From Eubacteriales bacterium (GTDB lineage Bacteria > Bacillota > Clostridia > Saccharofermentanales > DTU023), in the NCBI GenBank assembly GCA_030537595.1, contig JAUNVR010000013.1, positions 1 through 39,225 of the forward strand: DNA of 39,225 nt, read 5' to 3'. Each line of letters begins with the position of its first letter. The first letter of the stretch is position 1. The translations under genes were made by a program, and so were the position numbers. A model generated the notes under the pieces. It was not told the DNA's origin. It saw nothing but the letters and a program-made list of their open reading frames with translations, and did not search any database. Below, piece after piece: positions 5 to 32,606 of this stretch.

Positions 5-517
5 ATGCTTATGCTGCAAGATGATATTTATAGAATATATGCAAAATTGAAGCTCTACTATTATCGTCGAATCTTTCGTAAGTTAGATTCACGTGAAGAA
101 GACGCATTAACCGCAATTGAGACTTTCTGTGCGGAAGCGATCTATGGTCTGGGTCGACCGAATGTCACCCAATTTGCAGAGTTTGTTAATGTCTCACAGC
201 CGAATGCTGCATATAAGATTTCCAGTCTGGAGAAAAAGGGTTATATCAGGCGCATCAAATCTCCTGAGGATGGACGTATCGTGCTACTCGAGGTAACAGA
301 GAAGTTTCTCAGCCTCTATGGTTCTAGTGAGCGCTATGCAAAAGTTCTTGCGGAGCGCATCAGAGAGAGGTTTTCGCCGGAAGATGTGGAGAAGTTCGAG
401 CATATCTTGGAAGTAATTTCGACTGAGTTGATGCAGGAAGTAAACGATTACCTGATTAATGAAGCTAATCTGCCGGAAGAGAATGCCATAGCTAGAAGTA
501 GATCATCTGCTTCATAA
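5..517 (+). CDS. MarR-family winged-helix transcriptional regulator
   Basis: Small cytoplasmic DNA-binding protein of 170 residues. A helix-turn-helix lies at about residues 52-78 (VTQFAEFVNVSQPNAAYKIS). It is followed by a beta wing containing the DGR signature typical of MarR proteins (SPEDGRIVLLEVTEK). Helices on both sides would form the dimer interface. An in-frame stop (TGA, bases 2-4) lies directly before the first ATG, so the start is here or at the second ATG six bases on; the ribosome binding site falls outside the window. MarR proteins act as ligand- or redox-responsive repressors. In Firmicutes similar proteins (FabT) control fatty-acid synthesis, but nothing here shows the target. 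The genes it controls are probably upstream of the window, because a strong terminator follows it and the next genes are on the other strand. Confidence 0.85.
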   Translation: MLMLQDDIYRIYAKLKLYYYRRIFRKLDSREEDALTAIETFCAEAIYGLGRPNVTQFAEFVNVSQPNAAYKISSLEKKGYIRRIKSPEDGRIVLLEVTEKFLSLYGSSERYAKVLAERIRERFSPEDVEKFEHILEVISTELMQEVNDYLINEANLPEENAIARSRSSAS

Positions 518-693: not shown

Positions 694-3384
694 CTAGGCT
701 AAGAGCTTTTTTAAAATTTTTAGCGCCCTTTTACTATATGGGTGGTGGCGCATCGGGACATCAAAGTACCAAGACTTCTTTAAGACCGTGCGTTCATGAC
801 TGAAAGTGTAAAAACCATGGTCTCCGTGGTAGTTACCCATACCTGAGTTGCCCACCCCGCCAAAAGGCGCCTTGCTTGAGGCCATGTGTAGGAGTGTGTC
901 ATTAATTGCCACCCCACCACTCGAGATTGAATTCAAGGCCTTTTTAATAAAATCTGAGTCCTTTGTAAAGAGGTAGAGGGCCAAAGGCTTCTCCTTGTCC
1001 TTAAAGCTTCTTAAAAGCTCAGCCTGATCAGTCCAGCTAATAATCGGTAAGATGGGTCCGAAGATCTCTTCCTGCATTAAACGGCTGTCGAGGCTCACCT
1101 CATCGACCAGCACTGGCATGATTTGCTGGGTTTCTGGATTTAAGTAAAGCTGCCCATATTGCTCACTGGCAGGGAAAAGATTCCTCGCATTCTGAGGATA
1201 AATTAGCTTTTGCCCGGCTAATAACTCTCGCATTCTTTGGAAGTGTTTAGGCTGAATCATTTTGACATAGTTTGACTTGACGTAGTCAGCGCTAGGGAAG
1301 GCCTTCTCCAGTCCTTTCAGCAGTTCGAGAATCAATTCATCCTTGACCTTCTCCTCAACTAAAAGATAGTCCGGTGCGACACAGGTCTGTCCGGCATTTG
1401 TTAGCTTCCCAAAAAGTATGCGCTTAGCCGTCTTCTTTAAATCCGCGCTCTGATCCACAATACATGGCGACTTTCCGCCGAGTTCTAGAGTAACTGGGAT
1501 TAATCGCTTCGCGGCTTCGGACATCACAAATTTACCCACAGCGGGGCTACCGGTAAAAAAGATATAGTCAAAGTCAGTTCTAAGCAGGGCCTGATTTTCC
1601 TCGCGTCCACCTTCGATTACTTCCACCAATCCCGGTGTAAAGGCCTTTTGGCAAAGTCTCTTAATTAAAGCCGAGGTCGCGGGGCTATATGCCGAGGGTT
1701 TTATGACGGCACAGTTACCTGCGGCAATAGCATTTACTAAGGGGCCTAAGGTCAAAAGGAAGGGATAGTTCCAGGGTGACATGATTAAGGCAACGCCATA
1801 AGGTTCGTAAGTGATTTTTAAAGAGGCAGGTGCTTGTGAAATAGCCGGAATTCGTTTCTTAGCTTTAGCTAGACGCTTGAGATGACGGAGCATGTAGTTG
1901 ATTTCTTCTTTGACAATTGAGATTTCCGTCATGTAACTTTCTAATTCAGCCTTGTTTAAATCCTGCTTTAATGCTGCATAAATTTCGGCTTCTGATTCCT
2001 CGATGGTCTTTTTCAGTTTCCTTAGCTCTAATTTCCTAAACCTCAGGTTTTTTGTAATCTGACTTTGATAGAAGGTCTGGCAACGGGCAAAGGCTTTGCT
2101 AATTAGTTTTTCTTGTTCGCTCTTTGCGTTTTCAGCTGCCTCCTCCTGACTAGCGGGCTGGGCTGTACTAGAGTCGTCTTCACTCGGACCCTTAATTTCT
2201 AGGTATAATTTACTTAGTTCTGCCTCTCGCATGATTTTTGGAACCGGGTAGAGGGGGTTCGCTTCCTTAATCGCATGATGAACCAGGGCGGGAATGTCCG
2301 TGACTTTAATCTCCGGTAAATGTTCCGGGATATTCATTTCAGCATTCATCCGAATAATTTCATTAATTAAGGCTGCGCTAGCTTCCTGATCACTCGCGCT
2401 GTCTATGACTAGATTGTTCTGACGCGCTAATTTAGCCAGGTCGGCCTCTGCGCTTTGACCATAGGCTTTTAGAACGTAAGGTAGGATAATCGCATTGGCG
2501 AGGCCGTGGGCGGTTCCATAAAAAGCACTTAGGGCGTGAGAGAGGGCATGGACATAACCAACATAGGCCCTGGTGAAGGCGCAGCCTGCATCAAAGGCTG
2601 CGAGCTGCATTTTGGCTCGGGCTTCGAGATTATTGCCATCCTTATAGGCTGGGATGAGATAGTTAAAAATGAGTGCTACGGCTGACTCTGCCTTGGCCCT
2701 AGTATACTTTGTATTACTCTTTCCAATATAGGCTTCTAGGGCGTGAGTTAGAGCATCCATGCCTGTGCTCGCAGTGACATGGGCTGGCATAGAAGCACAA
2801 TATTCAGCTTTTAAGAGAGCGTAATCTGGGATTAGCTGGGGATCATTGATGGCATATTTTTCCTGATGCTCGAGGTCGGTGATAACTGCCGCCAAGGTCA
2901 CCTCACTACCTGAGCCCGCGGTCGTCGGGACAGCGATGATAGGCGGCGTTTTACGTAAGACTTTGAGCACGCCTTTGAGCTTAGGTATAGATTTTCTAGG
3001 TCTGGCTATTCTGGCTGCGGTTGCTTTAGCAAGGTCCATGGGGGAGCCTCCGCCAAAGCCGATGATGAGATCGCAATTTGCTTCTTTAAAGAGCTTTACA
3101 CATTCTTCAACTTGGACAATCGGCGGATTGGGCAAGGTTTCATTAAAGATGCTTAAGTGAATTCCTCCGGCCTTTAGCTTATCGATTAAGCTAATTGGTA
3201 GTCCCCGCCGATAGATATTTGGTCCGGTGATAAATAGGACGGATTTCCAGCCTTTAGCTTCTAGGAGCTGGAGAACTTTATCCTCTGCATCCTGCCCCTC
3301 AATCAGTTCGGGCTCACGCCAGGGTAGGATGAAAGAGGATAGGTACATGATTTTCTGGTAAGTCCGCATAAGAAAGTTATACAT
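694..3384 (-). CDS. Fused iron-containing alcohol dehydrogenase / aldehyde dehydrogenase
   Basis: One uninterrupted frame of 896 residues holds two full enzymes. Residues 25-397 are an Fe-dependent alcohol dehydrogenase: nucleotide-binding GGGS at 111-114, TTAGSGSE near 155, and all four metal ligands (Asp210, His214, His279, His293). An acidic Ser/Ala/Glu-rich linker follows (about 398-426). Residues 427-896 are an NAD(P)-dependent aldehyde dehydrogenase of the class-3 type, with SPWNYP, general base Glu634 in LELGG and nucleophile Cys668 in AGQTC. AdhE has the opposite order and a CoA-acylating aldehyde domain, so this is not AdhE. Inferred role: alcohol-aldehyde-acid interconversion with internal cofactor recycling. 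The start is set at the ATG five bases after GGAGG (3390-3394). An ATG four codons earlier overlaps that GGAGG and has no ribosome binding site of its own. Confidence 0.9.
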   Translation of the reverse strand: MYNFLMRTYQKIMYLSSFILPWREPELIEGQDAEDKVLQLLEAKGWKSVLFITGPNIYRRGLPISLIDKLKAGGIHLSIFNETLPNPPIVQVEECVKLFKEANCDLIIGFGGGSPMDLAKATAARIARPRKSIPKLKGVLKVLRKTPPIIAVPTTAGSGSEVTLAAVITDLEHQEKYAINDPQLIPDYALLKAEYCASMPAHVTASTGMDALTHALEAYIGKSNTKYTRAKAESAVALIFNYLIPAYKDGNNLEARAKMQLAAFDAGCAFTRAYVGYVHALSHALSAFYGTAHGLANAIILPYVLKAYGQSAEADLAKLARQNNLVIDSASDQEASAALINEIIRMNAEMNIPEHLPEIKVTDIPALVHHAIKEANPLYPVPKIMREAELSKLYLEIKGPSEDDSSTAQPASQEEAAENAKSEQEKLISKAFARCQTFYQSQITKNLRFRKLELRKLKKTIEESEAEIYAALKQDLNKAELESYMTEISIVKEEINYMLRHLKRLAKAKKRIPAISQAPASLKITYEPYGVALIMSPWNYPFLLTLGPLVNAIAAGNCAVIKPSAYSPATSALIKRLCQKAFTPGLVEVIEGGREENQALLRTDFDYIFFTGSPAVGKFVMSEAAKRLIPVTLELGGKSPCIVDQSADLKKTAKRILFGKLTNAGQTCVAPDYLLVEEKVKDELILELLKGLEKAFPSADYVKSNYVKMIQPKHFQRMRELLAGQKLIYPQNARNLFPASEQYGQLYLNPETQQIMPVLVDEVSLDSRLMQEEIFGPILPIISWTDQAELLRSFKDKEKPLALYLFTKDSDFIKKALNSISSGGVAINDTLLHMASSKAPFGGVGNSGMGNYHGDHGFYTFSHERTVLKKSWYFDVPMRHHPYSKRALKILKKLLA

Positions 3385-3570
3385 AGCTGCCTCCATTCGA
3401 CTTTGGCACAGCTCCTCGCGAAGCTTTCTTCGATGCCTAATTCGAAACTCTCTCTAGTTCTAGTCTCATAATTTCAATCTACAACTTAATGATTATTACT
3501 TACAGCCTTATCTTACCGTATTCAGCCCGATTAATAAATCTCAGCTTTCGAGAAAATTAAACTATCTATC

Positions 3571-29045: not shown

Positions 29046-30668
29046 ATGATCAAACGAAGAACTATGCTTGCACTGCTGCTTTTAATTATAGTTATTTCTT
29101 TACCATCTGAAATAATTGCTGCAAGACGAGATGCTGTGCAAGAAAGCAATGTATGTATAAGGTATACCGAAGAAGTAAATGCCGACATTCTCACTGCTGA
29201 CTGGCTATGTCGTGAAACAGGCAGGGAGGGCAGCTGGACAGTTTTTTCTTGGCCTTATGGTTCGGTGGGCTTTACAGATCAGAATGGTCAGCGTGAAGTA
29301 TTTCTTAGATTGCAGTCAGTTAATGGTAAAAGTCCTAGGCTAGATTATGGTCGGGGTGACGATCAGATAAAAGAAAGTAAAGATGAGTTAATTTGGTCTA
29401 CATCTTGGAAGTGGAGCAGAAAAACCTGGTATTCATTGCGCTTGCAATCTGAGGAAACTGGGGGACGCAGTTATTTAACTCTGTGGTTGAAACGACAAGA
29501 TCCCGACAATGATAGATACCAAAAATTAGCAGTTTTCAGTTATAACGGCACTTTAGCTCCATTGATTTTAAATAAATCCCAACACAGTTGCATGCTGACC
29601 GCCAAAGACAGTAGCATTTTTCAAATGCGAAAGGTTTACGCTAGGGAGAAAAATACTCGAGAGTGGAGGCGATTGGGGGATCTTGAAGTTCTTGAAGAAA
29701 ATAGCGGCGGGAGTACCCAGCATTGGACAGCAGTTCTTATTCAAAGAAAAAGCGTATTACGTCTACAAAGTGGAGCCAAAAGTAGAGAGGATATGCAGCC
29801 GATAGCTATAAGTCTTAATGATCGTGATTTACCAGATGTAAATGAATATTTATCTGAGGGCAAGTCCGAGCTGGCAAAAAATATTCAGAAATTTAGACTT
29901 CATGCTCCTACAGTTTTAAGTAATTACGAATACTATGATTTTGCAGACACGCTACAAGCAAGTTGGCGTTGCGAAGAAAATGGATTGGATACCTATTGGG
30001 CTTTGCTGCATTGGCCTTTTGGTTACTGCGGCTTCCAAAATGTGCAAGGTAAGCATTTGTTATTGTTTTCCGTTTGGAACCTAGATGACGGTACCAAACC
30101 CAAGATAGAGTTTACTAGGGGAAGTAAGTATGGTGTCTTCGATCATGAGGGAGTAGGCCTTCAATCCTTTATGGACTACCCTTGGAAAACTGGAGTCTGG
30201 TATACGATGCGGGTTCAGGAGTGGCGAGAGGCTAATGCAACCTATCTTGCTCTTTGGGTCAAAGAAGACAAGGGTCCTTGGGAATTGACAACTATATACA
30301 GTTATCCTGGTGACTACTATTTCCTTACGGATCCATGCTCTTTTCAGGAAGATTTTACTTTTAATAATGAAGTTCGCAGTTGTCGTATAAAGGATGTTTT
30401 TGCAAGAAACGCCTTTAGTAAGATATGGGTGCCCCTAAATCATATAAGAATAGAAAATAATTATGCTTTGTCAGATACTAACGAGGAGCTTAGATTAGAT
30501 AACATTCCTTTCAACGCTTATTATCGTCTATCTAAGAGCGGACGTTCTTTAAAAATTCACTGTGGTGGTCAAGAGGATCTTGATATTTTACTTCAAGCTG
30601 TTCCCAAAGTTTTTATCCTTAAGCAAAAACAGGAGCCAGCAGATACGTCATGGCTAACAACGGACTGA
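29046..30668 (+). CDS. Secreted protein with two DUF3472-like domains
   Basis: A 540-residue exported protein. A signal peptide covers residues 1-26 (hydrophobic core, then SEIIAA). Two related segments follow, about 37-215 and 290-480. Copy 1 has SWPYGSVGF and WSRKTWYSLRLQ; copy 2 has HWPFGYCGFQ, LLLFSVWNLDDG and WKTGVWYTMRVQEW. The second matches what I recall of DUF3472 (PF11958), a beta-rich, presumably carbohydrate- or surface-related domain of unknown function; the first is more diverged. Between and after them lie linkers of unknown nature (RIENNYALSD region). No catalytic motif is evident. AGGAG lies eight bases before the ATG. It is probably secreted to the cell surface. Confidence 0.75.
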   Translation: MIKRRTMLALLLLIIVISLPSEIIAARRDAVQESNVCIRYTEEVNADILTADWLCRETGREGSWTVFSWPYGSVGFTDQNGQREVFLRLQSVNGKSPRLDYGRGDDQIKESKDELIWSTSWKWSRKTWYSLRLQSEETGGRSYLTLWLKRQDPDNDRYQKLAVFSYNGTLAPLILNKSQHSCMLTAKDSSIFQMRKVYAREKNTREWRRLGDLEVLEENSGGSTQHWTAVLIQRKSVLRLQSGAKSREDMQPIAISLNDRDLPDVNEYLSEGKSELAKNIQKFRLHAPTVLSNYEYYDFADTLQASWRCEENGLDTYWALLHWPFGYCGFQNVQGKHLLLFSVWNLDDGTKPKIEFTRGSKYGVFDHEGVGLQSFMDYPWKTGVWYTMRVQEWREANATYLALWVKEDKGPWELTTIYSYPGDYYFLTDPCSFQEDFTFNNEVRSCRIKDVFARNAFSKIWVPLNHIRIENNYALSDTNEELRLDNIPFNAYYRLSKSGRSLKIHCGGQEDLDILLQAVPKVFILKQKQEPADTSWLTTD

Positions 30669-31442: not shown

Positions 31443-31466
31443 TAGAGCCTCCTTTTGGAGGCTCTA
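31443..31466 (+). terminator. Hairpin terminator after the transaldolase gene
   Basis: A perfect 10-bp stem TAGAGCCTCC / GGAGGCTCTA around TTTT. The sequence after it (CTATTCTAC) is only modestly T-rich, so termination may be partial. Confidence 0.65.
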
Positions 31467-31544
31467 CTATTCTACAATGATCTGAGCAGGGGAATTTCAG
31501 AGATACGGGCTAATAGCGGACAGCCGATGCAAAGGGGGAGAAGA

Positions 31545-32606
31545 ATGAGAGCCTTGCATAAAAAGATAAGGAGACTTCTTTCAAAAGTCGATTTTGAGGC
31601 CCTGTGGCCAGGCTTTAAAGTCTATCCATTTGCACTCTATAACCATGAGCGGGTGTGTTTTGCAGATGGGGAGATTCCTTGGAACCAGAGTTTCTTGGGA
31701 AATACGAGTATAGAATATGACGGTCGCCTCATAGCAATCTGGTCTGTCGAAGATGAAGCAGAGCAGGAAAATATTGAACGCTTGACTGCCAATATTGTTC
31801 ATGAGATGTTTCACGCCTGGCAAAAAGAGAGAGAAGAGAAGCGATATCCCGACGATCTCGCTCTTCTGATAAAAGCAGATGATTGCTTATTTTATGAGCT
31901 TAAGTTGAGAGAAAACGAATACCTGGCCAAGGCCTACAATGAAGCAAACCTTTCAATCAAGAAAGAGCTTTTACTTGCGTTTGCGAGATTAAGGCAATCC
32001 CGCCTCCTTCGTTTTCCTGCTGCGACTAAAGAAGAAGCTCTAGTTGAGAGCTTAGAAGGCACAGCAGAGTTTGTTGGAAGCTCTGCCTTACAGCAATTGG
32101 CACCAGGAGATTTCGATATGCTCATAGCTTCCTATTTAGCTAATTTAGAGCGTCTTGATAGAGGACTTTTTGACCTAAGACGCAAGGCTTATTTTAGCGG
32201 GACAGTGCTCTTGCACATCGCGAATGAACTGGGGCTTGAGTTTAATCCTTGTCCGAAAGACAATGATCTAACGATTTTCGAGATGCTCTTTCCAGATATA
32301 GATGCTCAAGAGATCGACTTCGAAGCGCGGGCAGAGATCAGTGAATTATTTTCAGATTATCAAAGTGATTTGGCAGAAGAAATACAAGCTATAGAAAAGA
32401 AGACGAAGCTACGTGAGTTGGATGCTAGGATCTGTGGCTATGATCCTATGAATATGGAGCGTCTAGGCGATGACCTAATCTGTCGAAACTTTGTCATGAT
32501 CAAATCGGGAGATAAGCAGCAGTTCATTGAGGGAGCAGTAGTTTTGAAAATGAAGCCTAAGGATCCATATAAGCTATGGGCATATCGGCTTGAAGATTCG
32601 CAATAA
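31545..32606 (+). CDS. Putative cytoplasmic zinc metallopeptidase (HEMFH, gluzincin-like)
   Basis: A 353-residue protein I cannot place in a named family. It has the zinc-binding HEXXH motif (HEMFHAW; His86, Glu87, His90) in a helical context (NIVHEMFHAWQ), and downstream EGTAEFVG near 171-178, resembling the EGxAEY segment that gives the third ligand in clan MA gluzincins. The spacing of about 80 residues is longer than in M1 enzymes. There is no signal peptide or membrane helix, so it acts in the cytoplasm. The C-terminal 120 residues are acidic and helical. The start follows GGGGGAG closely; earlier in-frame starts lie in or next to the transaldolase terminator. It precedes a four-gene ABC array by 253 bases; a role in processing an exported peptide is possible but unproven. 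Confidence 0.6.
   Translation: MRALHKKIRRLLSKVDFEALWPGFKVYPFALYNHERVCFADGEIPWNQSFLGNTSIEYDGRLIAIWSVEDEAEQENIERLTANIVHEMFHAWQKEREEKRYPDDLALLIKADDCLFYELKLRENEYLAKAYNEANLSIKKELLLAFARLRQSRLLRFPAATKEEALVESLEGTAEFVGSSALQQLAPGDFDMLIASYLANLERLDRGLFDLRRKAYFSGTVLLHIANELGLEFNPCPKDNDLTIFEMLFPDIDAQEIDFEARAEISELFSDYQSDLAEEIQAIEKKTKLRELDARICGYDPMNMERLGDDLICRNFVMIKSGDKQQFIEGAVVLKMKPKDPYKLWAYRLEDSQ

Follow-up and report, generated by a model that had tools for sequence, protein, structure and literature searches.

Features of the locus

The window, by which we mean the whole stretch of 39,225 nucleotides that was analysed, carries on its minus strand a gene (694-3384) of 896 amino acids and a stop codon, in which an iron-type alcohol dehydrogenase (ADH) is followed, in the same chain, by a class-3 aldehyde dehydrogenase (ALDH3). 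The frame 694-3396 is open over 900 codons on the minus strand, and the plus-strand reading of the region 694-3384 is interrupted by many stops. Two starts are available, an ATG at 3384 and an alternative one at 3396. A ribosome-binding site, GGAGGCAGCT (3385-3394, minus strand), lies immediately 5' of the former, and since GGAGG sits 5 nt ahead of this ATG we favour the start at 3384. The metal ligands and catalytic residues below are counted from ATG 3384, while the Pfam ranges are counted from ATG 3396: PF00465 covers residues 30-195, PF25137 residues 208-398 and PF00171 residues 409-871, with E-values from 1e-41 to 1e-83. The initial annotation had described a single frame, starting at 3384, with an iron-containing ADH (Fe-ADH) and then an ALDH, and had named four metal ligands, Glu634 and Cys668. 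The open frame, the Pfam matches, the codon usage and an AlphaFold2 model confirm this frame; the residues are correct when numbered from 3384, and the ribosome-binding site backs that start.

A MarR-family regulator (5-517, plus strand) is convergent with the fusion gene. Immediately upstream, and likewise on the minus strand, a gene encodes a PlsC-type acyltransferase (PF01553; 3571-4704), whose link to the fusion is at most putative. Farther along, we noted a serpin-family protease inhibitor (PF00079; 23301-24686, minus strand), which is uncommon in bacteria, a DUF3472 protein (29046-30668, plus strand) and an open reading frame of 383 aa with no Pfam match (31455-32606, plus strand).

The two enzyme halves

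The ADH domain (PF00465 and PF25137) lies at 2203-3309 on the minus strand. It has the ligands D210, H214, H279 and H293 and the cofactor motif GGGS at residues 111-114; neither ligands nor motif vary among nine aligned fusions, that of the window and eight others. By these sequence features (one Asp, three His and GGGS), this half is classed as a group III iron-containing alcohol dehydrogenase. The fold and the four metal ligands are common to it and to Zymomonas ADH2, FucO and the methanol dehydrogenase of Bacillus methanolicus, to which it is 31-35% identical, but the tree sets it apart in a separate Fe-ADH clade (SH-aLRT 98-99) whose members often adjoin an enzyme converting aldehydes to acids. 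The domain is preceded by an N-terminal helix (residues 2-16; 3337-3381, minus strand), aromatic and amphipathic in most relatives within the clade and absent from the host's other Fe-ADH. It is possible that this helix makes contact with the membrane surface; in the window it is less amphipathic than in most relatives (moment of 0.32, against about 0.5-0.66).

The ALDH domain (697-2106, minus strand) is of the class-3, ALDH3/FALDH-like, non-acylating kind, with N539, E634 and C668 and a C-terminal helix at residues 885-895. The three residues are invariant in the nine aligned fusions and line up with those of ALDH3A1. By sequence and by fold, the domain comes closest, among solved structures, to S. 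aureus AldH, ALDH3A1 and the human fatty aldehyde dehydrogenase, all of class 3; against class-3 ALDHs, the latter included, scores reach 343-346 bits and the TM-score is 0.94-0.95 when normalised by target length. Identity to class-3 enzymes (S. aureus AldH, 6k0z; ALDH3A1; ALDH3A2, 4qgk) is 39-43%, and the full fold, the N/E/C residues and the C-terminal tail are shared with them; these enzymes, however, stand alone, whereas the ALDH of the window forms one chain with an Fe-ADH and lacks a transmembrane anchor. We considered the benzaldehyde dehydrogenase MdlD (NF045701) and rejected it, as its model gave 408.6 bits, under the cut-off of 550. An aldehyde-to-acid activity with NAD(P)+ is predicted for this half.

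Spread and repeated origin of the fusion

The initial annotation had called for a search for single chains with ADH before ALDH. A scan of genome contigs with the single protein gave no match, and an alignment of the ADH was then used as query. Twelve more loci proved to carry ADH and ALDH in a single frame and in this order (L037, L045, L089, L094, L095, L097, L099, L113, L195, L196, L198 and L212), which makes 13 loci with the window; as these twelve share the order of domains, the fusion is far from a chance event. Unfused tandem pairs in the same order, with the ALDH3 gene a few bases after the ADH, were seen at about 28 loci. They are common in Clostridia and are also found in a few other groups (Treponema, Bacteroidales, Coriobacteria and Acholeplasmatales, the taxa being those of the sequence records). 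At L044 the ADH and ALDH genes are in a shared frame with one stop codon between them, which is close to a fusion. The counts of fusions and of pairs are lower bounds, as the search covered a part of the known species. A family-level search gave no fusion in the window's family besides its own, and among 399 genomes drawn across the phylum the window stood alone at E<=1e-140. No full-length fusion was found on plasmids and viral contigs. We found no paper on such an ADH-ALDH fusion in the open literature that was searched.

The AU test rejects one common origin for the 13 fusions, both on the ALDH halves (p-AU 1.6e-40; a minimum of 6 changes is forced) and on the ADH halves (p-AU 1e-4; a minimum of 5 changes). 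According to these trees, which were obtained by quick IQ-TREE searches and have some long branches, L212 above all, the fusion has several independent origins. One fusion event shared by the window and L113 is doubtful: their ADH halves join weakly (80) and their ALDH halves do not group.

The fusion of L212 (1441-4008) is a fused pseudo-enzyme, whose ADH half has lost the metal-ligand residues and whose ALDH half retains Glu and Cys. A fusion can thus, in some cases, do without a functional ADH half.

The ALDH half of the window's fusion clusters (96-99) with the stand-alone ALDHs of its own family and not with the ALDHs of tandem pairs; by this sequence evidence, it is derived from the stand-alone ALDH of the host's family. 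In four of these sister genomes (L005, L012, L015 and L016), a MarR gene that shares 58-61% identity with that of the window lies upstream of the stand-alone ALDH. From the grouping and from this likeness, we infer that the window's fusion probably arose at the MarR-ALDH locus of the family, through the gain of an ADH.

The joined frame and the comparison with AdhE

Between the two domains lies a charged, disordered linker of about 29 residues (residues ~398-426; 2107-2193, minus strand), rich in S, E, Q and A, through which codon usage favours frame 0, the coding one. There is no ATG, GTG or TTG among codons 385 to 485, so that the ALDH half is unlikely to have a start of its own. The linker holds another copy of GGAGGCAGCT (2134-2143, minus strand), followed by a GAA roughly at the place where the stand-alone ALDHs of sister genomes start. 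The 39-kb window has exactly two copies of this decamer, where 0.16 are expected, and two copies were found in 0 of 100 shuffles. The copy in the linker is probably a fossil, a ribosome-binding site left from a time when the ALDH was a gene by itself. An AlphaFold2 model, computed from an alignment of 63 sequences (the window and the loci of relatives), has two complete and confident domains with a mean pLDDT of 92.7, which falls below 50 at residues 404-414 only, a disordered stretch; as the pTM is 0.60, the placing of the two domains relative to each other is uncertain.

AdhE is the textbook fusion of the ADH and ALDH superfamilies. In its chain of about 870-900 aa (PRK13805 / NF010378), an Fe-ADH with the same kind of fold is likewise joined to an ALDH-superfamily domain, but the ALDH is there N-terminal to the Fe-ADH, whereas the ADH comes first in the protein of the window. 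The ALDH of AdhE is CoA-acylating, while that of the window, of class 3 and with a general-base Glu, is by its sequence not expected to be. In our ALDH tree, ALDH3A1 and SaAldH lie inside and the ALDH domain of an AdhE from a sister genome lies far outside; this AdhE domain also lacks the glutamate of LELGGK, which is E634 in the window. Hence, we concluded that the ALDH half is predicted to be non-acylating. The linker of AdhE has 7 residues (PMC8160307), against the roughly 29 disordered residues found here, and AdhE forms spirosome filaments. The reversed order proposed by the initial annotation is thus borne out by the Pfam domains, and its class-3, non-acylating ALDH by the tree, the fold and the catalytic Glu missing from AdhE; the tree does not place the ALDH half with CoA-acylating enzymes, a grouping which the annotation had named as evidence against its reading.

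Two doubts about the nature of the protein can be weighed on these data. The assembly from which the window was taken is fragmented (35 contigs), the fused frame is known from one genome of the genus, and a second genome of this genus (G001, 68% complete) gave no match to the fusion, so that the single frame might be an artefact of assembly or sequencing joining two neighbouring genes. We hold this to be very improbable, since an artefact would account poorly for about 29 linker codons whose usage resembles that of coding sequence and among which no start codon occurs, and since fused frames in the same order exist at 12 other loci, from other assemblies. It could also be supposed, given two superfamilies in a single chain of a size near that of AdhE, that the protein is an AdhE-like enzyme making or using acyl-CoA, with its domains swapped. 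The class-3 nature of the ALDH half (by tree, fold and sequence), its LELGGK glutamate and the score of the AdhE model PRK13805 against the window's protein (246 bits, for a cut-off of 951) leave this idea hardly any credit.

Partners of the ADH in relatives and in the host

At nine loci, from several bacterial families, YhhN is fused in one frame to the ADH. Five of these are YhhN-ADH-ALDH single frames (L045, L095, L099, L195 and L196); three are YhhN-ADH frames with an adjoining ALDH (L160, L199 and L211); the last, L209, is a YhhN-ADH frame with no ALDH seen within the stretch examined. At L092, YhhN is the third gene of one operon, after ADH and ALDH. The YhhN partner in these fusions is a membrane domain of the lysoplasmalogenase family, and YhhN proteins include lysoplasmalogenases which release a fatty aldehyde (PMC9052158). 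The association with YhhN is found in other branches of the ADH tree than that of the window.

At six other loci the same ADH clade adjoins an aldehyde:ferredoxin oxidoreductase (AOR), which likewise turns aldehydes into acids. In three of them, which belong to the window's own family, the ADH is encoded by a longer frame, of 547-551 aa, which overlaps the AOR gene (L022:748-2394, L023:1033-2685 and L025:1444-3084); the one that was scanned, L022, has ferredoxin-type 4Fe-4S domains in this long frame. Members of the clade without ALDH or AOR had no consistent neighbour when inspected by eye. The two kinds of partner, YhhN and AOR, point to aldehyde chemistry, and YhhN points to fatty aldehydes.

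In the host genome (G000, 1.55 Mb, 96% complete), the fusion is the only PF00171 match, there is only one other Fe-ADH and no AOR was found. This genome also has no match to PF07947 (YhhN) or to PF09989 (DUF2229, the PlsA plasmalogen synthase domain). The hypothesis that the host makes or cleaves plasmalogens is thus unsupported, and a source of lipid aldehydes is not native to the genome as assembled.

Proposed function

Class-3 ALDHs turn aldehydes into acids with NAD(P)+ in a practically irreversible way, and Fe-ADHs interconvert aldehydes and alcohols with NAD(P)H. An Fe-ADH gene joined to an ALDH3 gene would give a bifunctional enzyme, soluble or at the membrane surface. With NAD(P)+ as cofactor, its ALDH3 half would irreversibly produce the free acid from an aldehyde that is hydrophobic and probably of medium to long chain; its Fe-ADH half, with NAD(P)H, would interconvert that aldehyde and the corresponding alcohol. 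If the host lives by fermentation, as the initial annotation assumed, the simplest outcome would be that two aldehydes yield one acid and one alcohol while NAD(H) cycles between the halves, and the tether would hold the toxic aldehyde and the cofactor local. To the reading that the protein is such an enzyme, converting fatty or hydrophobic aldehydes to acid and alcohol with recycling of NAD(H), we give a probability of about 0.5. The chain length of the substrate, the direction of the ADH, the cofactor preference, the NAD(H) recycling, the channelling and the membrane contact are predicted features of this reading; a long-chain aldehyde is suggested by the YhhN fusions of relatives together with the fold match to FALDH. 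The initial annotation had the pair acting on aldehydes; this is supported, with the context in relatives pointing to fatty or hydrophobic ones and not to aldehydes generally.

In mammals, fatty alcohol:NAD+ oxidoreductase activity results from an alcohol dehydrogenase and a fatty aldehyde dehydrogenase that are separate proteins. The pair of reactions is the same and the partner is of ALDH3 type, which makes a functional analogy; in the window, however, the chain is fused and the ADH is of the iron type.

The sequence would fit dismutation and the oxidation of alcohol to acid alike. An oxidative use, in which a (fatty) alcohol is taken through the aldehyde to the acid with reduction of two NAD+, for growth on alcohols or for alcohol recycling, agrees with two intact catalytic halves and with the fact that the ADH clade is found beside ALDH3 and AOR, aldehyde oxidisers unrelated to each other, as would be expected of an alcohol-to-acid line. 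On general grounds, however, two NADH without an acceptor would bring little gain to a fermentative host, and the YhhN partner of relatives yields an aldehyde, not an alcohol (PMC9052158); we consider such a use possible but rather doubtful. It is unlikely that the ADH half now has a regulatory, structural or targeting role and that the ALDH half alone matters: the ligandless ADH of L212, whose ALDH keeps its Glu and Cys, is a precedent, and ErcA, from an ADH-like regulatory family, is among the profile matches, but the four ligands and GGGS are invariant in the window and in eight other fusions, and the ErcA model reaches 278 bits for a cut-off of 550.

The protein is a mirror image of the AdhE design with a different predicted chemistry, giving an acid and not an acyl-CoA. 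The repeated invention of the fusion seen in the trees suggests a selection for tethering both activities. Redox-neutral dismutation in one chain, if true, would make a useful biocatalyst, since a catalytic amount of cofactor alone would suffice. As the fusion arose several times, and in some relatives together with YhhN, it is probably a device for clearing greasy, toxic aldehydes. We propose, tentatively, that anaerobes have repeatedly built a one-chain fatty-aldehyde dismutase from an Fe-ADH and an ALDH3, in some lineages with YhhN as a third domain, embedded in the membrane, which would supply the aldehyde, and that the enzyme of the window would be a form without YhhN and the only ALDH of its host. 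The relatives fused to YhhN suggest what the role may be, namely the clearing of plasmalogen-derived fatty aldehydes in anaerobes.
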